Source: Acidobacteriota bacterium (GTDB lineage: Bacteria > Acidobacteriota > Terriglobia > Bryobacterales > Bryobacteraceae). Taken from it: a DNA stretch of 45,466 nucleotides. Below, piece by piece: positions 26,965-39,902 of the stretch; the first letter of the stretch is position 1, and every line of letters begins with the position of its first letter. The DNA is taken from the NCBI GenBank assembly GCA_016871055.1, contig VFZW01000008.1, positions 1 through 45,466 of the forward strand, given 5' to 3'. Position numbers and translations under genes: made by a program. The notes below the pieces were generated by a model. That model ran no database searches. It was not told where the DNA came from and saw only the letters and a program-made list of their open reading frames with translations.

Positions 26965-26970
26965 TTACTT
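26706..26970 (+). pseudogene. Decayed gene remnant, possibly HEPN-like
   Basis: One frame reads GDEPFEWPYFNYRSTSEQIDIQ and on to KRPFFGALCKSAG, stops at TGA (26832), then continues in the same frame with RKFQIVAEALVVLHKNRTS and ADYDTTSSFT. The part ALVVLHKNRTSADYD resembles the R-x-x-ADYD helix seen in some small HEPN-type proteins. It has no proper start, one internal stop and a homopolymer run at its left edge, and it runs into the nuoN 3' end. I regard it as a relic; identity is uncertain. Confidence 0.3.
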
Positions 26971-28425
26971 CCCCAACACCGCAAACTGGTTCGCCAGATC
27001 CAGCACGATCCCAGGGAAAATGCCCAGCACGAGCGTCGCCGCCGCCGTCACCCACATCGTCAGCTTCACGCCGCCGGGAATCTCTTCCGGGTGCTCGGTC
27101 GTCTCGGGCTCATGCATGTACATCACAACCAGCACGCGCAAATAGTAGTACGCCGCCACCGCCGAGTTGAGTAATCCCAGCGCTGTCAGCCACACGAACT
27201 TGCCTTCGATCGCCGCCTTGAAAATGTAGAATTTGCCGAAGAAACCGGCCGTCAGCGGCACGCCGATCAGCGACAGCATGAAGATCGTCAACAGCGCCGC
27301 CACCGCGGGTTGCCGCTGGCTAAGGCCCTTCAAGTCGTCGACCGTCACATGCTTCTCGCCGTCGCCGGCCACATGGGTCACGATCGCGAACGCGCCGTAG
27401 TTCATCAGCGCATACGCCGCCAGATAGAACATCGCCGCCGCCGTACCCATCGTCGAATGCGTCGTCACGGCGACGAGCACATAGCCCGCGTGCGCGATCG
27501 ACGAATAACCCAGCATGCGTTTGATATTGTTCTGCCACAACGCCGCGAAATTACCTACGATCATCGTTGCAAGCGCCATCATCCACAACACCGGAGCGAA
27601 CTTCGCAGCCAGCGGATCGAACGCAGTCAGGAACACACGAAGGAAAATCGCGAACGCCGCCGCCTTCGGCCCAGCCGAAAGAAATCCGGCCACTGGAGCC
27701 GGCGCGCCCTGATACACATCCGGCGCCCACGCCTGGAAAGGCGCGGCCGAGATCTTAAACGCAAAGCCGACTAGGATTAACGCCGCGGCCGCCGGCACCA
27801 TGATCGAAGAAGGCGCACCCGACGACAACGCCGTGCGGATCTCGCCCAGGTTCGTCGAACCCGTCATGCCGTAAATCCAAGCGACGCCATATAGCAAGAA
27901 TGCAGTCGCAAACGAGCCAAGCAGGAAATACTTCAAAGAGGACTCGTTCGAACGCTTATCGTCGCGCAAATAACCGGCCAGGATGTAGCTCGCGATCGAA
28001 CTCACTTCCAAACCGATAAACACCATCATCAGCTCATTCGCCGACGCCATGATGCCCTGCCCCGCGAGCGAAAACAGCAACAAAATGTAGAACTCGCCGG
28101 TGTGGGCCTTCTCGCGTTCGAGATAGTTCATTGAGCACAACACCGTAAAGATGCCGACGACATAGGCGACCACGCGGAAAAACGCCGCGAAGCCGTCGGA
28201 GATCACCATATTGCTGAACGCCAGCCCCGGATTCTGATACGCCACCACCGAGGCGCCCATCGCCGCGACAATCGCCAAGAGCGTGAACATCGCCACGCCC
28301 GTTCGGCTGTCGCGTTCCTTCTTAAATCCTTCGACCAACAGCAACAGCGTGCCCGCCAGAGTCAGAACGGTCTCCGGTAGAAACTTCAGCATGTCGGCGT
28401 TAGAAGGGAAAAAGTTAGTTGCCAT
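26965..28425 (-). CDS. nuoN: NADH-quinone oxidoreductase subunit N
   Basis: 486 residues from the ATG at 28425 (MATNFFPS); the longer frame overlaps nuoM further. About 14 membrane helices of the Mrp-antiporter type. The conserved Glu of the proton channel is in MMVFIGLEVSSIASYILAGY, and further features are AFKISAAPFQAWAPDVYQGAP with the channel Lys and NIKRMLGYSSIAHAGY. It is the distal proton-pumping arm of complex I and the last gene of the operon; its start overlaps the nuoM stop by 11 bp. No clear terminator follows. Confidence 0.96.
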   Translation of the reverse strand: MATNFFPSNADMLKFLPETVLTLAGTLLLLVEGFKKERDSRTGVAMFTLLAIVAAMGASVVAYQNPGLAFSNMVISDGFAAFFRVVAYVVGIFTVLCSMNYLEREKAHTGEFYILLLFSLAGQGIMASANELMMVFIGLEVSSIASYILAGYLRDDKRSNESSLKYFLLGSFATAFLLYGVAWIYGMTGSTNLGEIRTALSSGAPSSIMVPAAAALILVGFAFKISAAPFQAWAPDVYQGAPAPVAGFLSAGPKAAAFAIFLRVFLTAFDPLAAKFAPVLWMMALATMIVGNFAALWQNNIKRMLGYSSIAHAGYVLVAVTTHSTMGTAAAMFYLAAYALMNYGAFAIVTHVAGDGEKHVTVDDLKGLSQRQPAVAALLTIFMLSLIGVPLTAGFFGKFYIFKAAIEGKFVWLTALGLLNSAVAAYYYLRVLVVMYMHEPETTEHPEEIPGGVKLTMWVTAAATLVLGIFPGIVLDLANQFAVLGK

Positions 28426-29956
28426 GGTTCGCAGCCTCCGCGGCCGGTACAACCGGCGCCGCCACGCGCAGCGGAGCGCTTGTCGTCTGTGTCCGATCCA
28501 AAATCACTTTGTTCGATGCTCCGATCGACGGCAGGAACGTCTGCGTGTAGATGCCCATCCACAACATGAGCGCCAACAGCGGCGTGATGCATAGCCATTC
28601 GCGCGCGGTCATGTCATGCACATGATGCGCCACCGATTCCGGCGTTTCGCCGTAGAACGTGCGCTGGTACATCCACAGCATGTAGCAGGCCGATAGAATC
28701 ACACCCGTGGCCGCGATCACGGCCCACCAAACATTGGCTTGCGTCGCGCCTTGCAGCACCAGGAACTCGCCGACGAAGTTGTTCAGCGCCGGCATGCCGA
28801 TTGAGGCGAGCGTCGTCACCAGGAAGACGGTCGACAGCCAGGGTGCGGGCGTCGCCACGCCACCGTAGTCTTTTATCTCCAACGAATGCTGCCGCTCATA
28901 CAGGAAGCCGACAAGCATGAACAACGCGCCGGTCGAAATGCCGTGGTTTAGCATCTGGTAAACCGCGCCGTCGAGGCCCCACTGATTTCCGCAGAACAAA
29001 CCCAGTACGACAAAGCCTAGGTGGCTCACCGAGCTGTAGGCAACGAGCTTTTTCATGTTCGGTTGCACCAACGCGACCAGCGCGCCGTAGACAATACCGA
29101 TCAGCGCCAGCGTGATAATCCACCCGGAGTTCTCTTTCACCGCCACCGGGAACATCGGCAAGCAGAATCGCAGAATACCGTAGGTGCCCATCTTCAGCAT
29201 GACCGCGGCCAGCATGACGGACCCGGCAGTCGGCGCTTCGACGTGCGCATCGGGCAACCAGGTGTGCAGCGGGAACAGCGGCACTTTGATCGCGAACGCA
29301 AGGAAGAAGGCCAGGAACAGCAGCGTCTCCTCGACGTGCGTAAGCGTCAACTTACCACTCTGCATCATTGTCAGGAGCGCGGGATAATCAAACGTGCCGG
29401 CCTTGCCGTAGAGATACAAGATCGCCGCCAGCATCAGCACCGAACCCACCATCGTGTAGATGAAGAACTTCACGGCCGCGTAGATGCGCCGGTCATGGCC
29501 CCAGATTCCGATCAGGAAGTACATCGGCACCAGGCAGACCTCCCAGAACACGTAGAACAGAAAGAAGTCGAGCGAAATGAACACTCCGATCAACCCGAAC
29601 TCAAGCAACAGCAGGAACGCGTAAAACTCTTTCACACGGTCCTTGATGTAGCTGAATGAAAGCAGGATTGAGATAGGCGTCAGAAACGTCGAAAGCAGCA
29701 CGAGCCACAGGCTGACGCCGTCGATCCCGACGTGATACCGAATCGCGGGCGTCGAAATCCAGGCGACATCGGTAACCCAGGTCATCGCGGCGGGCCGTTG
29801 CAACGCCGCTCCGGCCAGTCCGAGCGAAACGCCAAACACGATCACCGAAAATCCGAGTGCGAAATTCTTGAGCTTCGACGCGCTACCCTTCGGCAGCACC
29901 AGCATGATTAGAAAGCCGATCAACGGTAGGGCGAGAACGATGTCGAGAAGGTTCAT
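28415..29956 (-). CDS. nuoM: NADH-quinone oxidoreductase subunit M
   Basis: 513 residues from the ATG at 29956, which overlaps the nuoL stop by 4 bp. About 14 membrane helices. Antiporter hallmarks are FYVFWEVCLVPMYFLIGIWG with the key Glu, KVPLFPLHTWLPDAHVEAPT with channel Lys and His, and NMKKLVAYSSVSHLGFV. It forms a proton-translocating unit of the membrane arm. The C-terminal tail is Ala/Pro-rich. Confidence 0.97.
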   Translation of the reverse strand: MNLLDIVLALPLIGFLIMLVLPKGSASKLKNFALGFSVIVFGVSLGLAGAALQRPAAMTWVTDVAWISTPAIRYHVGIDGVSLWLVLLSTFLTPISILLSFSYIKDRVKEFYAFLLLLEFGLIGVFISLDFFLFYVFWEVCLVPMYFLIGIWGHDRRIYAAVKFFIYTMVGSVLMLAAILYLYGKAGTFDYPALLTMMQSGKLTLTHVEETLLFLAFFLAFAIKVPLFPLHTWLPDAHVEAPTAGSVMLAAVMLKMGTYGILRFCLPMFPVAVKENSGWIITLALIGIVYGALVALVQPNMKKLVAYSSVSHLGFVVLGLFCGNQWGLDGAVYQMLNHGISTGALFMLVGFLYERQHSLEIKDYGGVATPAPWLSTVFLVTTLASIGMPALNNFVGEFLVLQGATQANVWWAVIAATGVILSACYMLWMYQRTFYGETPESVAHHVHDMTAREWLCITPLLALMLWMGIYTQTFLPSIGASNKVILDRTQTTSAPLRVAAPVVPAAEAANHGN

Positions 29957-31818
29957 CGGCCACCTCCTAATACGGTCACCGTGCCTAAGACGAAGATGAC
30001 TCCAATCACGACCCACGCGGCGTAATTGCGAATCTCACCGTTTTGCGCGCGCCGCACCAAATCGCCAAAATTCTGCGCCGCGCCGCTAAAGCCATGCACA
30101 AAACCGTTGTCGATCACACCCGCGTCCATCACCTTCCACAGGAAGTTGCGCGAACTGCGTTCGATCGGATGCACAATCGTCGCGTCGTAAGCCTCATCGA
30201 CGAAGTACTTGTGATAGAGCAGATTGTAGAGACCGCTGAACGAACTCTTTAGCAAATCGGCCATGGACGGATTCGCGACGTAGACGATGTAGGCCAAAGC
30301 GATGCCGATAAAGCCCGGCGCGGTACCCATCACCATGTCCATCATGGAGTGCTCCGTATGCCCCTCGGGCACAATGCCGTGGAACACCGGCTCCAGAATG
30401 TGCGGAATCTTGAACAGCCAGCCGCCAACCACTGACAGCGCGGCCAGCACGTAAAGCGGACCGATCATCACCCAAGGCGACTCATGCGGATGCGCATGGC
30501 CCTTATACTCGCCGAAGAAGGTGAGGAAGATCGACCGGAACACGTAGAACGCCGTCATCAGCGCGGTCACCCAGGCCACCCAATACATCCACGGATGATG
30601 ATGCATCGCCGCGCCCAAAATCTCTTCCTTCGACCACCAGCCCGACATCAGCGGGAAGCCCGCGATCGCAAGCGCCGCGATCAGCAGCACGTTGAATGTG
30701 TGCGGAATCTTTTTGCGCAATCCGCCCATGTGCCGCATGTCCTGCTCGTGATGACACGCGTGAATCACCGAACCGGCGCCAAGGAACAAAAGCGCCTTGA
30801 AGAACGCGTGCGTCACGACGTGGTAGATACCGACCGAAAATGCGCCGCAGCCAACCGCGAGAAACATGAACCCAAGCTGCGACACCGTCGAGTACGCGTA
30901 AACCTTCTTGATATCGTTCTGAACCAGGCCGATCGTCGCCGTCATCACGGCGGTCGCCAGACCGACATACGCGACAACATCCATCGCGATCGGCGCTTTC
31001 ATGAACAATGCCGCCGAGCGCGCGCACATATAAACGCCCGCGGTCACCATCGTCGCCGCGTGGATCAAGGCCGACACCGGCGTCGGGCCTTCCATCGCGT
31101 CCGGCAACCAGACATACAGCGGAATTTGCGCCGACTTGCCCGTCGCGCCCACCAACAGCAGCAAGCAGATCGCCGTGATGATCCCTGCCGAAGCTTCGAC
31201 AGGCATGCCCTTCGCCTTCTCAAACACCGTACCGAAATCGAGCGAGCCAAACACGACGACGATTAAGAACATCGCCAGCGAAAAACCGAAGTCGCCGATA
31301 CGGTTGACGATGAACGCTTTCTTGCCGGCGTCGGTCGCGGACTTCTTCAGGAAGTAGAATCCGATCAGCAGGTACGAGCACAGCCCCACGCCTTCCCAAC
31401 CGACAAACAGGATCAGAAAATTTCCGCCCAGCACCAGAATCAGCATGAAGAACATGAACAGATTCAGGTACGCGAAAAAGCGATAGTAGCCCTCCTCCTC
31501 ATGCATATATCCGATCGCGTAGATATGGATCAACGTGCCGATGCCCGTGACCACACATAACATCACCGCCGTCAGCCGGTCGACCGCGAAATCGACGCCG
31601 ACCTGCAACATGCCCGAGGCCATCCACGTGAAGTAGTGCTCCACGTAGCGCTCTTCGAGCGGCATCAGCGCCATCAGAGTCTTCACGACCCAGAGGAACG
31701 AAAGCAGCACGCTGCCGATTGCGACCGCGCTTTGCACGGTCTTGCTGGTTCGGCGTCCGGTGAAGCCGTTGATCGCGGCGCCCGCCAGCGGTAGGAATGG
31801 GATGAGCCAGAGTTGCAT
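29953..31818 (-). CDS. nuoL: NADH-quinone oxidoreductase subunit L
   Basis: 621 residues, typical length. The Glu-containing LILFVGWEGVGLCSYLLIGF, then GATGKSAQIPLYVWLPDAMEGPTPVSALIHAATMV, NDIKKVYAYSTVSQLGFM and HAFFKALLFLGAGSVIHA are all present, followed by the long C-terminal helix region and a final membrane anchor. Terminal proton pump of the membrane arm. It starts 6 bp after nuoK. Confidence 0.97.
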   Translation of the reverse strand: MQLWLIPFLPLAGAAINGFTGRRTSKTVQSAVAIGSVLLSFLWVVKTLMALMPLEERYVEHYFTWMASGMLQVGVDFAVDRLTAVMLCVVTGIGTLIHIYAIGYMHEEEGYYRFFAYLNLFMFFMLILVLGGNFLILFVGWEGVGLCSYLLIGFYFLKKSATDAGKKAFIVNRIGDFGFSLAMFLIVVVFGSLDFGTVFEKAKGMPVEASAGIITAICLLLLVGATGKSAQIPLYVWLPDAMEGPTPVSALIHAATMVTAGVYMCARSAALFMKAPIAMDVVAYVGLATAVMTATIGLVQNDIKKVYAYSTVSQLGFMFLAVGCGAFSVGIYHVVTHAFFKALLFLGAGSVIHACHHEQDMRHMGGLRKKIPHTFNVLLIAALAIAGFPLMSGWWSKEEILGAAMHHHPWMYWVAWVTALMTAFYVFRSIFLTFFGEYKGHAHPHESPWVMIGPLYVLAALSVVGGWLFKIPHILEPVFHGIVPEGHTEHSMMDMVMGTAPGFIGIALAYIVYVANPSMADLLKSSFSGLYNLLYHKYFVDEAYDATIVHPIERSSRNFLWKVMDAGVIDNGFVHGFSGAAQNFGDLVRRAQNGEIRNYAAWVVIGVIFVLGTVTVLGGGR

Positions 31819-31824
31819 CGTCCG

Positions 31825-32169
31825 TTAGTTCTTTAGTGTGTCGATATCGTCGATCTGCAGCGTCGCCCGGTTGCGGAAGACCATCAGAATGATGGCCAGA
31901 CCGACAGCGGCTTCAGCAGCCGCCACCACCATGACGAAGAAGGGAAAAATCTGCCCGTCCACTTTTCCAAACTGATTGGAGAAGGTGACGAACGTTAGGT
32001 TCACGGCATTGAGCATCAGCTCGATCGCCATGAACACGGTGATAATGTTGCGGCGGAACAGAAACGCGGCCACGCCGATCGTGAACAGAATCGCGCTCAG
32101 AATGAGGTAGGCGTTCAACGGAACCGCTTGGTTGAGGAACTCCTGCGGAAGGATTGCGGATAGCGACAT
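31825..32169 (-). CDS. nuoK: NADH-quinone oxidoreductase subunit K
   Basis: 114 residues with three membrane helices. The conserved Glu residues lie in the second and third helices ([13 protein letters not shown] and [12 protein letters not shown]), both needed for proton coupling. Start shares one base with the nuoJ stop (TAATG). Confidence 0.97.
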
Positions 32170-32669
32170 TAGTCAAGCTCCCGATCGGCCAGCCGGACGG
32201 CGCCGGCGATCGCGATCAATATCAGAATCGATGTCACTTCAAACGGCAGCACGTAGCGGGTGAACAACTCCCATCCGACTTCGCGCGGTCCACCGCCGCT
32301 GAACGCGCCGAACTTCACCATCTTGCCGGCCAGGGTCGACTTCGTGATCACCCACGTCGACACAGCTAGCAGCAGCAACAGCAGCGGAATGCCCATGAAA
32401 TGGGCCAGCCCCGCCTTGTGCGTCGTCTTTTCCGCGCCCGCGTTCAGCAGCATGATGACGAAGATGAACAACACCATGATCGCGCCCGAGTAGACCACCA
32501 ACTGCGCCGCCGCGATGAACTCCGCGCCCAGTAGCACATACAACACGGCGAGCGAAACCATCACGCCGATCAGTGACAACGCGCTGGCCACCGGATGCCG
32601 CTGCAGCGCCATGCTTAAGCCGCAGACAACGGCGATGATTGCGAATGTAAGGAAGAGGACTAGATCCAT
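32169..32669 (-). CDS. nuoJ: NADH-quinone oxidoreductase subunit J
   Basis: 166 residues with five membrane helices. The third has the conserved [20 protein letters not shown], including the pi-bulge Tyr region. It follows nuoH directly with a 4-bp gap, so nuoI, which normally sits between them, is missing. Confidence 0.96.
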
Positions 32670-32673
32670 GGTT

Positions 32674-33858
32674 TTACTTCCCGAGGAACGTCACGCCGAA
32701 TGCCGTGAGCAAGAGGTTGATCAATGAAACCGGAAACAGGAACAGCCATGCGATTTTCATGAGCTGGTCGTACCGGAAACGGGGCAGCGTCGCGCGCACC
32801 CAGATAAAGAAAAACAGCAGGAACCCGACTTTGCCGAGGAACCAGAACAGCGGCGTCACGATCGGCCCAATGTAGGGGGCCATGAAAATCGCCGCGATCG
32901 CCAGTATGATCACTCCGAAAACCGGGAAGGTCTTGCGGTCCGAAGGGCGGCCGGGATTCATGCCGTGATAGAGCAGAGTAACGCCGAAAAGCGCGAACAG
33001 CGCCGTCGGAACCAGCGGCGAAATCGCCTCGGGCACGATCGGATGCCATCCGCCCAGGAACAGTGCCGTCGCCACCGAGCAAACGATCACCATGTTGCAA
33101 TATTCGGCCATGAAGAACGCCGCGAACTTCATCGACGAATACTCGCTGTGGAAGCCGGCGACCAATTCGTTTTCGGCTTCCGGCAAGTCGAACGGAATAC
33201 GGTTCGTTTCGGCGAATCCGCAAATCATGTAAGCGACGAAACCGACGATCTGAAACCCGGTGAACAGGTTCCAGTTCGGAATGAAGCCGAACACGAAGCC
33301 TTCTTGCGTGTTGACGACTTCGCGCAAGTTCAGCGAATTCGAAAGCAGCAGCGGCGCGGCCAGAGCAAGGGCCATTGGCAGTTCGTAGCTGATCATCTGC
33401 GCCGAGCTGCGCAATCCGCCCAGCAGCGCGTATTTGTTGTTCGAACTCCAGCCAGCCAGCGCGATGCCATAAACACCCATGCCGGCCAAACCCAAGATCC
33501 ACAACAGGCCGATGTTCAAATCCGCCAAGCCCAGATTCGTCTTCACGCCAAAAATCTCAACAACAGGCCCAAACGGAATCACGGCGATGCCCGTTACCGC
33601 GAACATCAGGCCCAGCCACGGGGCAAGCCAGTAAAAGAAGTGATTCACGCCGCTCGGAATAAAGTCTTCCTTCGTGAGCAACTTCACCGCGTCGGCGATC
33701 GGTTGCAACAAACCGTGCGGCCCGACAAAGTACGGCCCGACGCGCAACTGCACGTGGGCGATCACCTTGCGCTCCACCCACACGATGTAGGCGAGCGTCG
33801 CCAGCAGCGCCGGCGCGATGATCAGCATTTTGATAATGGATACGAGGAGAAAGTCCAT
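32674..33858 (-). CDS. nuoH: NADH-quinone oxidoreductase subunit H
   Basis: 394 residues with eight or nine membrane helices. Family motifs: VWVERKVIAHVQLRVGPYFVGPHGLLQPIADAVK, with the Glu-Arg pair near the quinone site; AGWSSNNKYALLGGLRSSAQMISYE; and CGFAETNRIPFDLPEAENELVAGFHSEYSSMKFA, the charged loop at the quinone chamber. It links the peripheral arm to the membrane arm. Starts 12 bp after nuoG. Confidence 0.97.
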   Translation of the reverse strand: MDFLLVSIIKMLIIAPALLATLAYIVWVERKVIAHVQLRVGPYFVGPHGLLQPIADAVKLLTKEDFIPSGVNHFFYWLAPWLGLMFAVTGIAVIPFGPVVEIFGVKTNLGLADLNIGLLWILGLAGMGVYGIALAGWSSNNKYALLGGLRSSAQMISYELPMALALAAPLLLSNSLNLREVVNTQEGFVFGFIPNWNLFTGFQIVGFVAYMICGFAETNRIPFDLPEAENELVAGFHSEYSSMKFAAFFMAEYCNMVIVCSVATALFLGGWHPIVPEAISPLVPTALFALFGVTLLYHGMNPGRPSDRKTFPVFGVIILAIAAIFMAPYIGPIVTPLFWFLGKVGFLLFFFIWVRATLPRFRYDQLMKIAWLFLFPVSLINLLLTAFGVTFLGK

Positions 33859-33870
33859 GTGTTCCCGTTC

Positions 33871-35949
33871 CTAGCGGTAGAGACCGCCGGGGCCTTCCAT
33901 CACTTCATTCAACACTTTCGAGTACTTCGTCAGCGTGCCCGTTGTGAACAGCGTGTCGCCGGCCGACCGGATCAAATCCGGCAGCACATTCGACGGTACC
34001 CGCCCGTTCACGGGCTGCGTCTGCGCCGCGCCACCGGTCACAATCACCGGCAGTGGAACATTATAGCCACGAACTGTTTTTTGGATTTCCGCGAACACAT
34101 TGTCCGCATCCACCTTGCCGAGATTCACGCCCAGGCCGCGCGCGATCAAACCGATGATCGCCAGATCCGTCTTCGCGCCAACCGTATCGGCGGCCTTCTT
34201 CAAGCGCTGCACTTCGCCGCAAGTATTCGTTACCGTTCCGTTCTTTTCGTACGCCGACGCCGCGGGCAACACCAGATCGGCGCGCTCGGCTGTTTCGGTG
34301 CGGAACAGATCCTGCACAACGACGAACGCCTTCGACGATGCCAGCGAGGCCTTCTTGAGCGGATTCGCGCCGACGACCCAAACTAAATCCAGATCCGTCG
34401 CCGCCAACATCTGCGGCAGCGTCAAACCGGCCTTACCTTCCACCGCGTGATAACCCGGTCCCAAATCCGGCAACAGGCCCATATCCATCGCGCCGCGGGA
34501 ATTCGCGTAATCGACCAATGCGATGTACTTCACGGGAATGCCCAGCGAATCGCCCAGAGCGACTAACTTCCGCAGCCCCTCCCCCTTCACCGCGTCGCCG
34601 AAGACAACGAGCAATTCCTTCTCGCCTGCCAGCGAACCCTTCAGATTTTCAACCGCCGCCAGCCAATCCTCGCCGGCCCGCACGGCCTTCTTCGCCGTCT
34701 TGTCCTCGCGCACCGCGCCTGGCGTGACAACGTACACCGGGGTCTTGTGATGCCGCACGTTCGCGCGGATCTGATTGGCGAGGAACGGATGCTGCTGCGA
34801 AAGATCCGCGCCGATAATCAACACGGCCTTCGACGTGTAGCAGTCCGCCGACGTCCCAAGAGCGCCCGTCTTTCCACTTAACGCATCAAGCAGGGTGGCG
34901 ACATCGCCCGAACGGTGATGATCAATATTGTTCGTTCCGAAAACCGTCCGCGCGAATTTCTGCAGCAGGAACGCTTCTTCGTTCGAAGTGCGTGTCGAGC
35001 CAATCACACCCACGTTGCCCTTGGCATCTCGCACAGCCTTAAACTTCTCAACGAGCACCTGCAACGCGCGCGACCAGCTAACCTCTTCCAGCTTCCCATC
35101 CACGCGCAGCAACGGCGCTTGCAGCCGTTCCGGGTGATGGTTGAAGTCGAATGCGTACCGGCCCTTCACGCACAGAAACTCACCGTTCACGCCGGAGCGA
35201 TCGCGATTGTTACCGCGCACGATCTCGCCGTTGCGCGTGCCCAGCGTGGTCTTGCAGCCATCGGAACAATGCGTGCAAATCGTACCCGTGTGTTCCATCT
35301 CCCACGGCCGTGTCTTGTAGCGATACGCGCCGGAGGTCAGCGCGCCAACCGGGCAAATGTCGATACACGATCCACATTCATCGCACTCAAGATGATCGCC
35401 GTGCGACGGTGCGATTTCGGAAACAACGCCGCGGTTGACGACGCCCAACGCGCCCACGCCCATGCCTTCATTACAGACACGCACGCAGCGATAACACAGA
35501 ATGCAGCGCGGCCCGTCGTAGAAAACCACCGGACTCCACTGCTTCTCCGGCACGTGATGCTTCACCTCGGTGAAGCGCGATTCGCCCGCGCCGTACTTGA
35601 AAACCATGTCCTGCAGTTCGCACTCACCGCCCTTGTCGCACACCGGGCAATCGAGCGGATGATTCGTCAACAAGAACTCAAGAGTCGTTTTCCGCGCCTT
35701 CACCACAGCCTCGGATTCGGTGCGAACCACCATGCCTTCGGCCACCGGCACAACGCAGGCCGCCATCAGCTTCGGAGCTTTTTCGATTTCGACCAGACAC
35801 ATGCGGCATGCCGCTTGCAGCGACATGCCTTCGTAGTAGCAAAACGCAGGAATTTCGATGCCCGCCGTCTTTGCCGCGTCGATCAGCAGGCTACCCGCCG
35901 GCGCTTCCACCGGCGTGTCGTTGATCGTCAGCTTCACCAGATTCGACAT
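33871..35949 (-). CDS. nuoG: NADH-quinone oxidoreductase subunit G
   Basis: 692 residues, shorter than the E. coli protein (about 900). Cluster ligands visible: N1b (Cys37, 48, 51, 65), N5 (His97, Cys101, 104, 110), then Cys149/152/155/159 and Cys189/192/195/199, a full ferredoxin-type pair of CxxCxxCxxxC motifs, and N7-type ligands Cys225, 228, 232 and 260. A molybdopterin-oxidoreductase-like domain follows without catalytic motifs. It relays electrons from NuoF/NuoE towards NuoI and NuoB. The eight-Cys ferredoxin pattern resembles hydrogenase or formate-dehydrogenase relatives more than the E. coli subunit. Confidence 0.96.
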   Translation of the reverse strand: MSNLVKLTINDTPVEAPAGSLLIDAAKTAGIEIPAFCYYEGMSLQAACRMCLVEIEKAPKLMAACVVPVAEGMVVRTESEAVVKARKTTLEFLLTNHPLDCPVCDKGGECELQDMVFKYGAGESRFTEVKHHVPEKQWSPVVFYDGPRCILCYRCVRVCNEGMGVGALGVVNRGVVSEIAPSHGDHLECDECGSCIDICPVGALTSGAYRYKTRPWEMEHTGTICTHCSDGCKTTLGTRNGEIVRGNNRDRSGVNGEFLCVKGRYAFDFNHHPERLQAPLLRVDGKLEEVSWSRALQVLVEKFKAVRDAKGNVGVIGSTRTSNEEAFLLQKFARTVFGTNNIDHHRSGDVATLLDALSGKTGALGTSADCYTSKAVLIIGADLSQQHPFLANQIRANVRHHKTPVYVVTPGAVREDKTAKKAVRAGEDWLAAVENLKGSLAGEKELLVVFGDAVKGEGLRKLVALGDSLGIPVKYIALVDYANSRGAMDMGLLPDLGPGYHAVEGKAGLTLPQMLAATDLDLVWVVGANPLKKASLASSKAFVVVQDLFRTETAERADLVLPAASAYEKNGTVTNTCGEVQRLKKAADTVGAKTDLAIIGLIARGLGVNLGKVDADNVFAEIQKTVRGYNVPLPVIVTGGAAQTQPVNGRVPSNVLPDLIRSAGDTLFTTGTLTKYSKVLNEVMEGPGGLYR

Positions 35950-35958
35950 CCTTGCTCC

Positions 35959-37266
35959 TTAGGCCACCTGAACCAGTTCGGTCGACGCGAACGGATTCTT
36001 CGCCACATAGGCTTCAAACTCCGGACGCCATTTCTTCACCAGCGATATCGTCGGCAACGCCGCGGCATCGCCCAGCGGGCAGAACGTGCGCCCCAACATC
36101 GACTGCGCCAGATCGCCGATCAAATCCACATCTCGCGACGCGCCGTTGCCGTCGATAATCCGCACCAGCATCTTGCGCAGCCAGGTAGTTCCCTCGCGGC
36201 ACGGAATGCACCAGCCGCAACTCTCGTGGTTGTAGAACCGCATGATGCGCAGCGCGACTTTGACCATATCGGTGGTCTCGTCCATCACCATCATGCCGCC
36301 CGAACCGAGCATCGTGCCGGCCTTCGCCATCGTGTCGTAATCCATCGCGATGTCGCATTCTTCGGCGCTCAGAATCGGACACGACGAACCGCCCGGAATA
36401 ATCGCCTTCAACTTCCGGCCGCCCAACATACCGCCGCCGATCTCGTTGAGGAAGTACATCATGTTCATGCCCAGCGGAACTTCGTATACACCCGGCTTGT
36501 TCACATGACCCGCCAGACACACCAGCCGCGTACCGCCATTGCGGGGCGTGCCGAGTTCCGCGTACCACTTGCCGCCGCCATTGAGAATCGCGGGCACCGT
36601 CGAAAACGTCTCGACGTTGTTCAACACCGTCGGGCATTGGAACGCGCCGCTAACTGCCGGGAACGGCGGACGAATCCGAGGCACGCCGCGCTTGCCTTCG
36701 AGCGATTCGAGCAGCGCCGATTCTTCGCCGCACTCGTAAGCGCCCGCGCCGGTCTGCGTGTAGAGATCGAAATCGAATCCCGTGCCAAGAATGTTTTTGC
36801 CCAGCAGGTTTCGCTCGTAGCACTCCTTCATCACCGCGTCCATGTGATCGATCAGGTAGCGGTACTCGCCGCGAATGTAGACCCATCCCTTTGAAGCGCC
36901 GACCGCTTTCGCGGCGATCAGAATGCCCTCGACCATCTGGATCGGATCGTGCTCCATCAGAAGCCGGTCTTTGCAGGTGCCCGGTTCGGATTCATCCGCG
37001 TTGACGACGATGTACTTCGGCAACTCGCTTTGCCGCGGCACGAAGCTCCACTTCATGCCCGTCGGGAATCCCGCACCGCCGCGGCCTCGTAGCGACGAAG
37101 CCTTCACTTCATCGATAATCTGATCCTGCGTCATCTCGCAGGCTTTCTTGAACGCCTGCATGCCGCCCGTCGCCAGATACGTATCGACCCGCCATGAGTT
37201 CTGCGTGCCAAACCGCTTGGAGATGACTCTTGTCTCTAACGGACTCGGTTCGTTGTAGAGCTTCAC
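35959..37266 (-). CDS. nuoF: NADH-quinone oxidoreductase subunit F
   Basis: 435 residues from a GTG at 37266 that overlaps the nuoE stop by 4 bp (GTGA). The longer open frame upstream lies inside nuoE. NADH/FMN-binding GRGGAGFPTG is at 61-70, then GAGAYECGEESALLESLEGKRG. N3 ligands Cys350, 353, 356 and 396 lie in ESCGWCIPCREG and TFCPLGDAA. It oxidises NADH through FMN. All ligands are intact. Confidence 0.97.
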   Translation of the reverse strand: MKLYNEPSPLETRVISKRFGTQNSWRVDTYLATGGMQAFKKACEMTQDQIIDEVKASSLRGRGGAGFPTGMKWSFVPRQSELPKYIVVNADESEPGTCKDRLLMEHDPIQMVEGILIAAKAVGASKGWVYIRGEYRYLIDHMDAVMKECYERNLLGKNILGTGFDFDLYTQTGAGAYECGEESALLESLEGKRGVPRIRPPFPAVSGAFQCPTVLNNVETFSTVPAILNGGGKWYAELGTPRNGGTRLVCLAGHVNKPGVYEVPLGMNMMYFLNEIGGGMLGGRKLKAIIPGGSSCPILSAEECDIAMDYDTMAKAGTMLGSGGMMVMDETTDMVKVALRIMRFYNHESCGWCIPCREGTTWLRKMLVRIIDGNGASRDVDLIGDLAQSMLGRTFCPLGDAAALPTISLVKKWRPEFEAYVAKNPFASTELVQVA

Positions 37267-37736
37267 TTCAGTCCCTCCAGGATCTCGTCCAGCTTGCCGG
37301 TGGTCACTTCGTGATGGAAGTCGTAGTTGACCTGAATCGCCGGCGCCCACGAACACGCGCCGATGCATTCGACTTCTTCGAGCGAGAACTTTCCGTCCGC
37401 CGCCGTCTGCTTGTGTCCAAGATTCAGCTTCTTGCAAGCGTGGTCGTACAATTCGGCGCCGCCACGCAGCATGCAAGCCACGTTCGTGCAAACCTGTAGG
37501 TGGTACCTGCCCTGCGGCTTCTTGTGCAGCATCGAGTAGTAGCCGGTGACCTCATCGACCTGCAGAGTCGTGATGCCCAGCCGCTTGGCCAACTCTTCCA
37601 TCAACTCCTGCGTCACCGCGCCAATCTCGTCCTGCGCGTACATCAGCATCGGTATCAACGCGCCGCGTTGCCGGCCTTCCGGATAATGCGTCAACAGCTC
37701 CGCGAAGCGGGCTTCCAATTGCGGGGAAAACGTCAT
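37263..37736 (-). CDS. nuoE: NADH-quinone oxidoreductase subunit E
   Basis: 157 residues from the ATG at 37736, which overlaps the nuoD stop by 4 bp (ATGA); an upstream TTG at 37745 would lie inside nuoD. The [2Fe-2S] N1a ligands are in VCTNVACML (C-x4-C) and ECIGACSWAP (C-x3-C). Partner of NuoF and NuoG in the NADH-oxidising head. Confidence 0.96.
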   Translation of the reverse strand: MTFSPQLEARFAELLTHYPEGRQRGALIPMLMYAQDEIGAVTQELMEELAKRLGITTLQVDEVTGYYSMLHKKPQGRYHLQVCTNVACMLRGGAELYDHACKKLNLGHKQTAADGKFSLEEVECIGACSWAPAIQVNYDFHHEVTTGKLDEILEGLK

Positions 37737-38944
37737 CGGTCGCAATCTCCCAGTACGAAATCCAAACTTCCCATGATCGCGATCGAATCCGCGATGCCCC
37801 GGCTCTCGATCATATTCGGCAGCCCTTGCAGATTGCCGAAGCTCGGCGTGCGCATGTGCACCCGAAGCGGTTTCGCCGTCCCATCGCTGACCACGTAATA
37901 GCCGAGTTCGCCGCGCGGCGACTCGACCACTTGAAATACTTCGCCGGCCGGTACGCTGATGCCTTCCGTCACAATCTTAAAGTGATAGATCAGCGACTCC
38001 ATCTGCGTCTTCATCCGCTCGCGTTCCGGCAGCACCGCCTTCGGCGCATCGGCTTGCACAGGGCCTTCCGGTATCCCGGCCATGGCCTGCTGCACGATTT
38101 TGGCCGACTCGCGCATCTCGCGCACACGGCATTCGTACCGCGCGTACACGTCGTTATCGGTTGAGGTCGGCACTTCGAACTGGAACTTCTCGTAGCTCGA
38201 ATAGGGCGTCATCTTGCGGGCGTCGAACGGAATGCCCGCGCCACGGATACACGGCCCGGTCAAGCCGATCTCAAGCATTTCTTCGACCGAGATCTTGCCC
38301 ACGCCCTTGGTTCGCTTCAGCCAGATCGGATTCGTGTTCAGCAGCGATTCGTATTCGTCGATCTTGCTCGGCAACCCGTCGATAAAGGTCTTCACGCGCT
38401 TTTCCCAACCGCGCGGAGGCTCCAGCGCCAGCCCGCCGATTCGAATGTAGGACGTCATCAGGCGTTGGCCCGAGAACATCTCGAACAAGCGGAGAATGTC
38501 TTCGCGCTCGCGGAAGCAGAGGAAGAACACCGTCATCGCGCCGATGTCGAGCGCGTGTGTTCCCAGCCAGACCAAGTGGCTATTGATGCGTGTCAGCTCA
38601 GCGAGCAAAACACGCAGGTACTGGGCCTTCGGCGGAATCTCCATCTGGAGCAACTTCTCAACAGCCAAGCTGTAGCAGAGGTTGTTCGAGAGGTTGGCCA
38701 GGTAGTCGACGCGATCGGTCAGCGTGATCACCTGATGCCAGTTCAACGCCTCGCACTGCTTCTCAATGCCCGTGTGCAAGAAGCCGATGTCCGGCGTCGC
38801 TTTGAAAATCGATTCCCCGTCCAACTCCAGTACCACGCGCAACACACCGTGCGTCGACGGGTGCTGCGGACCCATGTTTAGGGTCATGCGCCGCGTGTGG
38901 CTGCTTTGTTTTTCTTCGGGTTCCGCTGGGATCGTGTGGCTCAT
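37733..38944 (-). CDS. nuoD: NADH-quinone oxidoreductase subunit D
   Basis: 403 residues. Conserved TLNMGPQHPSTHGVLR, GFLHTGIEKQCE and YLANLSNNLCYSLAVEKLL; the C-terminus ends in DFVLGDCDR, the NiFe-hydrogenase-like end. It forms most of the quinone site with NuoB, which is not encoded beside it. The start is 66 bp after nuoC, the widest gap in the operon, with GGGGAAG upstream. Confidence 0.97.
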   Translation of the reverse strand: MSHTIPAEPEEKQSSHTRRMTLNMGPQHPSTHGVLRVVLELDGESIFKATPDIGFLHTGIEKQCEALNWHQVITLTDRVDYLANLSNNLCYSLAVEKLLQMEIPPKAQYLRVLLAELTRINSHLVWLGTHALDIGAMTVFFLCFREREDILRLFEMFSGQRLMTSYIRIGGLALEPPRGWEKRVKTFIDGLPSKIDEYESLLNTNPIWLKRTKGVGKISVEEMLEIGLTGPCIRGAGIPFDARKMTPYSSYEKFQFEVPTSTDNDVYARYECRVREMRESAKIVQQAMAGIPEGPVQADAPKAVLPERERMKTQMESLIYHFKIVTEGISVPAGEVFQVVESPRGELGYYVVSDGTAKPLRVHMRTPSFGNLQGLPNMIESRGIADSIAIMGSLDFVLGDCDR

Positions 38945-39010
38945 GGTTGTAGGGCTTCCCCTGTATTACGGGTTCGTCGCTGCGCGAGAAGAGGGTGGCC
39001 CAACTCCTCT

Positions 39011-39463
39011 TTATTCACTCTTGTAGTCGTACTTGTGGCCGTGCACGGGGTAGTCCCGCCGCAACGGATGGCCTTGCCAGAAATCGGGCATCATGATCCG
39101 GGTCAGGTTCGGATGCCCTTCGAAATTGATGCCAAACAAATCGAACGCTTCGCGCTCGTACCAATTGGCCGCCGCGTACACAACGGTCGCGGACGCAATC
39201 TTTGGGTTGTCGCCGGTTGCACGGCACTTCAGCCGCACGCGCAGGTTCCGCGCCACTGACTGCATGTGATAGACGACCTCGAAGCGCGGCTCCATCGGAT
39301 ACCGATCGACGGCCGTGACGGAAACAAAGCGCTCAAACTTCTGCGTCTTCAGCGCGCGCAGGGCTTCCAAAATTTTTTCCGGAACAATTTCCAGCGTCAG
39401 TTCGTCGAGAGCGGTAGACGTGTTCAAGACCAGCGAGGGGTCCAGCAAGTTCTCAGGCAGCAT
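39011..39463 (-). CDS. nuoC: NADH-quinone oxidoreductase subunit C
   Basis: 150 residues, the single-domain form rather than the NuoCD fusion. NWYEREAFDLFGINFEGHPNLTRIMMPDFWQGHPLRRDYPV is the family signature region (given in pieces: WYEREAFDLFGI and GHPLRRDYP). The start overlaps the nuoA end by 11 bp, so no nuoB lies between. Confidence 0.96.
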   Translation of the reverse strand: MLPENLLDPSLVLNTSTALDELTLEIVPEKILEALRALKTQKFERFVSVTAVDRYPMEPRFEVVYHMQSVARNLRVRLKCRATGDNPKIASATVVYAAANWYEREAFDLFGINFEGHPNLTRIMMPDFWQGHPLRRDYPVHGHKYDYKSE

Positions 39464-39902
39464 GGTCGAGTTTCTCCAGTGTCGGATTCTTGCGCAACGT
39501 CCCCGCAGCGGCTTGCCGTTCGATGTCCTCGGCGTGCGACCAGTTCATCACGCCCTTCTTGTAGATGTAGATGTAACCCGCTAACACCAGCACGATGAAG
39601 ATGACCATTTCTACAAATCCGAACCATTTGAGATCGCGGTAAACAATGGCCCACGGATAGAGGAACACAGCTTCAATGTCGAACAGGATGAACAGCATCG
39701 CGACCATGTAGAACTTGACGCTGAAGCGTTCTTTGGCCGAGCCGATCGGCGCCATGCCGGATTCGTACGGCATGTCTTTGAACTTGTTTCGGATTCGCTT
39801 ACCGAGTGCGGCGCCCGTCAGGATCACGCCGGTTGCGTTCAGGATGGCGAATATCCACGCCAACAGAACGGGAAAATAACTTTCAGGGAGGGATGTGGGC
39901 AT
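39453..39902 (-). CDS. nuoA: NADH-quinone oxidoreductase subunit A
   Basis: 149 residues with three membrane helices. The loop MPYESGMAPIGSAKERFSVKFY contains the conserved Tyr-Glu-Ser-Gly next to the quinone site, and FILFDIEAVFLYPWA is the second helix with its conserved acidic residues. First gene of the operon, with a promoter at 39941-39969. A basic C-terminal tail extends beyond the third helix. Confidence 0.96.
   Translation of the reverse strand: MPTSLPESYFPVLLAWIFAILNATGVILTGAALGKRIRNKFKDMPYESGMAPIGSAKERFSVKFYMVAMLFILFDIEAVFLYPWAIVYRDLKWFGFVEMVIFIVLVLAGYIYIYKKGVMNWSHAEDIERQAAAGTLRKNPTLEKLDHAA

Follow-up and report, generated by a model that had tools for sequence, protein, structure and literature searches.

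A complex I operon of Acidobacteriota without nuoB and nuoI, which stand alone at two other loci of the genome

We analyzed a stretch of 45,466 nucleotides (the window) of contig VFZW01000008.1 from an Acidobacteriota bacterium (class Terriglobia, family Bryobacteraceae; assembly GCA_016871055.1). From 26965 to 39902, its minus strand carries a 12-gene complex I operon, nuoA-C-D-E-F-G-H-J-K-L-M-N, without nuoB and nuoI. Both genes were found elsewhere in the same genome. Judged from the sequence, the enzyme is very probably an ordinary NADH:quinone oxidoreductase that pumps protons and has 14 subunits, its genes being distributed over three loci (i.e. the main, 12-gene operon in the window, nuoB, and nuoI). 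A normal complex I is the most likely reading because all 14 core subunits (12 in the window, NuoB and NuoI elsewhere) are encoded with their cofactor ligands. The layout is common to most of the sampled genomes of the class and constitutes a conserved split nuo cluster.

Each open reading frame (ORF) of the operon matched the expected Pfam family. At the usual position of nuoB, nuoA and nuoC overlap by 11 bp, and at the usual position of nuoI, nuoH and nuoJ are 4 bp apart; there is no room for nuoB at the former junction or for nuoI at the latter. Gene order, overlap, and gap agree exactly with a preliminary description of this DNA. A copy of either gene hidden in the window was rejected as a candidate: a tblastn search with the NuoB and NuoI of the genome itself listed no place for either in the window.

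The genome (G000; 7.14 Mb, 713 contigs, 95.7% complete) contains a single intact copy of each gene. nuoB is located at 447-992 of contig C232 (PF01058, 3.1e-28; one match at E <= 0.001) and nuoI at 8013-8510 of contig C82 (TIGR01971, 139.6 bits; the sole match over the cut-off, with four more matches to the NuoI model all below it). The preliminary description had thus correctly stated that the complex needs both genes from elsewhere. It had also suggested looking for them next to each other or beside a second nuo cluster; no other nuo gene was detected on C232 (11,064 bp, whole) or on C82 (20,000 of 20,008 bp examined). nuoB is followed by flaG, with a malQ-like gene in divergent orientation (FlaG and MalQ were assigned by family matches), and nuoI follows a redoxin-like gene (also a family match). 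Near nuoI, ORFs resembling lipB, lpdA, and an acyltransferase gene were named by reading the ORFs. The position of nuoB directly upstream of flaG on the same strand was seen in G000 (L007:101-992, family match) and in G060 (L169:7903-9359, similar ORF); in G060, nuoB is also upstream of fliS on this strand. nuoB and flagellar genes may share a transcript.

Both proteins found their best PDB matches in Thermus complex I: NuoB in chain 2fug_6 (2.7e-66; residues 26-169 of 181 aligned) and NuoI in chain 2fug_9 (4.8e-45; residues 14-150 of 165 aligned). The iron-sulfur cluster N2 is bound by ligands of NuoB, and N6a and N6b by those of NuoI. The two CxxCxxCxxxCP motifs of NuoI were present in all 44 sequences compared, including that of the genome itself. 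The NuoB ligands (CC, C, CP) were likewise present in 44 of 44, again including its own, with a pattern tolerant of spacing (39 of 44 with a stricter one), and are visible in the Thermus alignment. The distance between the third and fourth ligand cysteine of NuoB was 27 residues in all five genomes of family f1 in the tree set; among the other 39 sequences it was 28 residues in 37 and 25 residues in two (G145 and G105). The NADH-oxidising module NuoE/F/G is present with its cluster domains (Pfam and NCBIfam matches; PDB alignments for NuoG and NuoF). The cluster cysteines of NuoG are visible in its PDB alignment, and the ligands of NuoE, NuoF, and NuoG were judged by eye rather than counted by script. 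Three transcription units would thus supply the subunits from which a normal complex assembles, and electrons would pass from NADH via flavin mononucleotide and the NuoE/F/G clusters to N6a/N6b in NuoI, N2 in NuoB, and finally quinone.

To see how far the arrangement extends, we recounted gene junctions by script in the best 80 of 228 NuoA matches, a set that is not a random sample. nuoA was followed by nuoC, without nuoB, in all 35 informative loci titled as Acidobacteriota (a 36th, L026, ends there), and nuoH by nuoJ in all 26 such loci that show what comes after nuoH. Loci titled as Gemmatimonadota had nuoA followed by nuoB (22 of 22) and nuoH followed by nuoI (16 of 16 of those reaching it). 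Two of the loci with the nuoA-nuoC order (L049 and L050) are Granulicella records that are not titled as metagenome-assembled genomes (MAGs). A short locus titled Deltaproteobacteria bacterium (L059; Myxococcota) reads nuoA-C-D-E and also lacks nuoB.

For a tally over 101 genomes of the class, the input from each genome was its best match to nuoB and to nuoI together with the nuoA matches listed; for nuoH it was mostly the best match alone, without second copies. Identity cut-offs (about 66% for NuoB and about 58% for NuoI) were chosen visually, where the listed matches show a break; since the match tables list part of the matches, co-location counts hold among the matches listed. High-identity stand-alone copies of both nuoB and nuoI were found in 72 of the 101 genomes. 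Neither was found in 27, only nuoB in G015, and only nuoI in G100. Of the 72 genomes with both, 60 had the two genes on different contigs and 12 on one contig, there separated by 62 kb to 1.8 Mb. No genome of the 72 had nuoB and nuoI within 20 kb of each other on a shared contig, with linkage across a contig gap possible in the 60, and none had either gene that close to the best-scoring nuoH. A nuoA was present at this range from nuoB in G001 and from nuoI in G069 and G097; in each case it was the second in the list and the more distant copy. The nuoA and nuoH listed first lay together in 66 of the 72 and on different contigs in five; for G089 neither was listed. One of these five, G085, had only distant nuoA and nuoH copies among the matches listed. 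G085 and G089, both of family f1, thus possess the stand-alone nuoB and nuoI with no close nuoA or nuoH among the matches listed; either the operon was lost or the assembly has a gap there.

Fetched sequences gave the same picture. All 17 operons of the window type had nuoA followed by nuoC without nuoB, and nuoI was absent from all 16 that reach nuoH and nuoJ (the operons of G010 and G006 are cut by contig ends). The one-contig genome G097 has the same operon order. Within up to 8 kb on each side, no other nuo gene was present at 19 of 20 nuoB loci and 19 of 20 nuoI loci; the two exceptions among these 40 are the distant second nuoA near nuoB in G001 and near nuoI in G097. No nuoI was found at the 20 nuoB loci, and no nuoB at the 20 nuoI loci.

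Evidence on the order in which the genes left the operon came from a sample of 80 genomes of the phylum. In genomes outside the class (four of four in family f29 and two of two in f39), nuoB adjoins nuoA, and another contig carries the best NuoI match. The fetched regions of these sisters read A-B-C-D without nuoI, those of f39 showing only A to F in the fetched stretch. Careful trees were computed without CAN_L079, SIS_G145, and SIS_G105, which were long or unstable in quick trees, and the NuoB and NuoI set also without OTH_G135. In these trees, the class and five sisters formed one clade for the operon proteins (support 100/99) and for NuoI (99/94); the class alone formed one clade for NuoB (98/97) and NuoI (88/96). 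Quick operon trees also recovered the class as one clade (90). NuoB, NuoI, and the operon proteins thus appear to share largely the same descent, which speaks against foreign replacement. Most likely, nuoI left the operon first and nuoB later, as the sisters keep nuoB in the operon and have nuoI elsewhere. According to this history, nuoI would have departed before the split from the sister lineage, whose operon retains nuoB, and the departure of nuoB would date to the ancestor of the class. Tandem nuoI-like genes, two each, were also noted at L221 (5820-6993; G142) and at G152:C34:133417-134394.

The surroundings of the stand-alone genes were compared for 21 loci per gene, considering only genes present in at least three loci (FliS and GCV_T were named by a family match from one representative each). 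At the nuoB loci of family f1, the long ORF on the malQ side occurred in five of eight and the FliS gene in four of eight. Other genes are shared, in various combinations, by the nuoB loci of families f2, f4, f5, f6, f9, f10, and f11; among them, a gene resembling the glycine cleavage T protein lies beside nuoB in f2, f4, f5, f6, and f10. Neighbours of nuoI are shared within families only, except for one gene in f2, f5, and f11. Hence, the site of nuoB is common to several families but different in f1, and that of nuoI is mostly family-specific. The preliminary description had allowed that the order might be normal for the clade with the two genes at a fixed second locus. This largely holds, the order being common in the class, except that the other loci are two in number; the neighbours of both are conserved within families, and those of nuoB between several families as well, but not throughout the class.

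Several observations weigh against a single three-locus layout with a simple stepwise origin. The NuoB tree joins the class and its sisters with support of only 86/67, lower than in the other two trees. The careful operon tree had the class as one clade in only 23% of bootstrap trees and placed family f8 (G008 and G017) weakly with the sister lineage (78/53); taken literally, this tree would need nuoB to have left twice or to have returned. Furthermore, G145 and G105, which lie outside the class, have a displaced nuoI and do not group with the sister clade, which makes repeated displacement of nuoI within the phylum probable. The four f29 sisters and the class had no nuoI neighbour in common. 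The matches between sister and class neighbours of nuoI were limited to a single G142 gene, with counterparts in G001 and G010, and two ORFs shared by G145 and G025. As neighbours are barely shared with the sister lineage, a single relocation of nuoI is argued from the tree and not from the surroundings. In Angelobacter (L037), a NuoI of 72% identity is encoded, in opposite orientation, some 3.5 kb upstream of nuoA; the stand-alone gene thus need not be far from the operon. Finally, comparing 300-bp upstream sequences of the three loci (nuoA, nuoB, and nuoI) of the genome under study revealed no shared motif, as 70, 24, and 33 of 100 single-base shuffles scored as high.

Alternative explanations were weighed against a normal complex I encoded at three loci. 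The preliminary description had proposed that nuoB and nuoI moved together. That they left in one event and are still adjacent, or lie beside a second nuo cluster, is very unlikely. Such a move would fit the absence of both from the same operon, the side-by-side nuoB and nuoI of other Acidobacteriota (G135, G163, G117, G171, and G158), and the distant second nuoA near one of the genes in G001, G097, and G069. It conflicts with their location on different contigs in G000 and in 60 of the 72 genomes, with the large distances in the other 12 and the lack of any pair within 20 kb, with the different neighbours at the two loci, and with the sister lineages, in which only nuoI is displaced. In the 12 genomes with both genes on one contig, adjacency as the present-day layout is refuted. 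An artefact of assembly or binning might be suspected from the 713 contigs of G000 and from nuoB lying 447 bp from a contig end. We give this practically no credence, given the same order in all 35 informative Acidobacteriota loci, among them the two Granulicella records not titled as MAGs, and in the one-contig genome G097. An assembly gap at the operon, which had been named earlier as a possible cause, was rejected because relatives show the same order.

The content of the operon, taken by itself, would also suit a complex without the electron path through NuoI and NuoB, in which another electron-input or output module operates instead. This is extremely unlikely: the genome encodes intact single NuoB and NuoI proteins that appear largely to share the descent of the operon proteins, and NuoE, NuoF, and NuoG are present with their domains. 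A replaced input module, likewise raised in the preliminary description, is not indicated and was rejected, with NuoE/F/G in the operon and the NuoB and NuoI ligands intact. Alternatively, the original genes may have disappeared, with nuoB and nuoI of another lineage or of the second complex I taking their place. The present genes are unlinked to the operon, and many relatives do carry a second NuoB and NuoI. However, NuoB and NuoI of the class group with the in-operon NuoB and the NuoI of the sister lineage, and not with second-complex copies (the T2 rows) or those of Gemmatimonadota; we consider replacement highly improbable. It also seems improbable that separate transcripts for NuoI and NuoB, precisely the two subunits linking the NADH arm to quinone, were selected as such, either because the rest of the complex is built and the connection then timed, or because subunits are exchanged between complexes in relatives whose second complex lacks E, F, and G and has a stand-alone nuoA and nuoB as well.

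The genes of a three-locus complex I that lie in the window are listed in Table 1. The nuoF ORF as listed overlaps nuoE by about 229 bp. Its start is probably over-called by the first 75-80 codons or so, with the true start near 37260, since the listed PDB alignments of NuoF begin at residue 72 or later. NuoH contains about 60 extra residues (approximately 277-333) relative to the best-matching solved chains, 8e9g_H (Mycobacterium-type) and 4he8_H (Thermus), both of which align in two pieces. A conserved stretch upstream of nuoA contained no RNA gene at the Rfam gathering level and no tRNA; from reading of the ORF, without a family search, it resembles thiS, in the opposite orientation.

Table 1. 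Genes of the complex I operon in the window
Gene	Position	Strand	Length	Remarks	Family matches
nuoA	39453..39902	-	149 aa		PF00507 2.9e-34
nuoC	39011..39463	-	150 aa		PF00329 9.1e-44
nuoD	37733..38944	-	403 aa		PF00346 5.6e-112; TIGR01962 over cut-off
nuoE	37263..37745	-	160 aa	[2Fe-2S] thioredoxin-like subunit	PF01257 1.5e-47
nuoF ORF	35959..37491	-		family match from residue 90	TIGR01959 over cut-off
nuoG	33871..35949	-	692 aa	[2Fe-2S] and [4Fe-4S] domains	TIGR01973 over cut-off; Pfam domains
nuoH	32674..33858	-	394 aa		PF00146 1.6e-113
nuoJ	32169..32669	-	166 aa		PF00499 1e-34
nuoK	31825..32169	-	114 aa		PF00420 3.3e-29
nuoL	29953..31818	-	621 aa		PF00361 and PF00662; TIGR01974 over cut-off
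nuoM ORF	28415..30016	-	533 aa listed	family match from residue 24	PF00361; TIGR01972 over cut-off
nuoN ORF	26965..28452	-	495 aa listed	family match from residue 22	PF00361; TIGR01770 over cut-off

Further nuo arrangements were observed in relatives. Family f3 of the same class (L166 and L237 of G026; L238-L240 of G038) has a second operon, A-E-H-J-K-L-M-N, i.e. a membrane arm plus NuoE, in which no B, C, D, F, G, or I was seen. It is convergent with a nuo set of the 11-subunit type; in G038, this set is split into two parts separated by about 29 kb. Another contig encodes both a NuoG-like and a NuoI-like protein in each of the four f3 genomes inspected (L242-L245). Possibly, the second operon of f3 encodes a membrane arm with a different input. 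Relatives of the window in family f1 (L229-L236 of G060, G097, and G055; L192 of G097) have a second complex I with the order C-D-I-J-K-L-M-N-H, in which no E, F, or G was seen. In all three genomes, the nuoB of this complex is separated from other clear nuo genes (a weak NuoG-like match lies 5.7 kb away in G060); the corresponding nuoA stands by itself in G060 and G055, and in G097 it is near the stand-alone nuoI. Outside the class, nuoB and nuoI are adjacent at L225 and L226 (G135), L228 (G163), L223 (G117), L227 (G171), and L224 (G158; order B-I-B); G135 has a nuoACDHJKLMN operon on a contig other than that of its nuoB-nuoI pair.

Assessing gene content requires the whole genome rather than a single operon, and calling complex I from single clusters would wrongly score many members of the class as 'incomplete'. 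The order in which complex I genes split off in the phylum was probably nuoI first, followed by nuoB. Genomes with both genes in the operon, with nuoI out, and with both out form a natural series for asking whether operon linkage matters to the assembly of a large complex.

The literature, of which coverage was partial, yielded no account of such a nuoB/nuoI layout for Acidobacteriota, so that one may be in print; passages of PMC4859585 and PMC8235220 do not concern it. In the passages available from a recent survey (PMC12361115, Genome Biol Evol 2025), most clades mix split and single-cluster complex I, and most Acidobacteriota species have a complete complex I; these passages on split clusters do not include the nuoB/nuoI case of this class or its history. 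A second complex I that is loosely arranged is described for Chloroflexus in the part seen of PMC3150298. For NUO-2 of Nitrospina gracilis, the available text of PMC3578206 places nuoB2 and nuoF2 outside the main nuo clusters and retains nuoI in nuoACHIJKLMN. This resembles the present case in that nuoB is outside the main cluster, but differs in that nuoF2 is also apart, nuoI is in the cluster, and the authors suggest a different electron partner (PMC3578206, same excerpt). Like the 14-subunit bacterial complex I of the Thermus, Mycobacterium, and E. coli types, the system described here has all 14 core subunits, with NuoF and NuoG over their family cut-offs. Unlike these nuoA-N types, it has nuoB and nuoI standing alone, a NuoH with about 60 extra residues, and, in family f1, a NuoB with the 27-residue cysteine gap. 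Dispersed nuo genes are already known, and the present one is a further case, with a class-wide pattern and a probable stepwise history.

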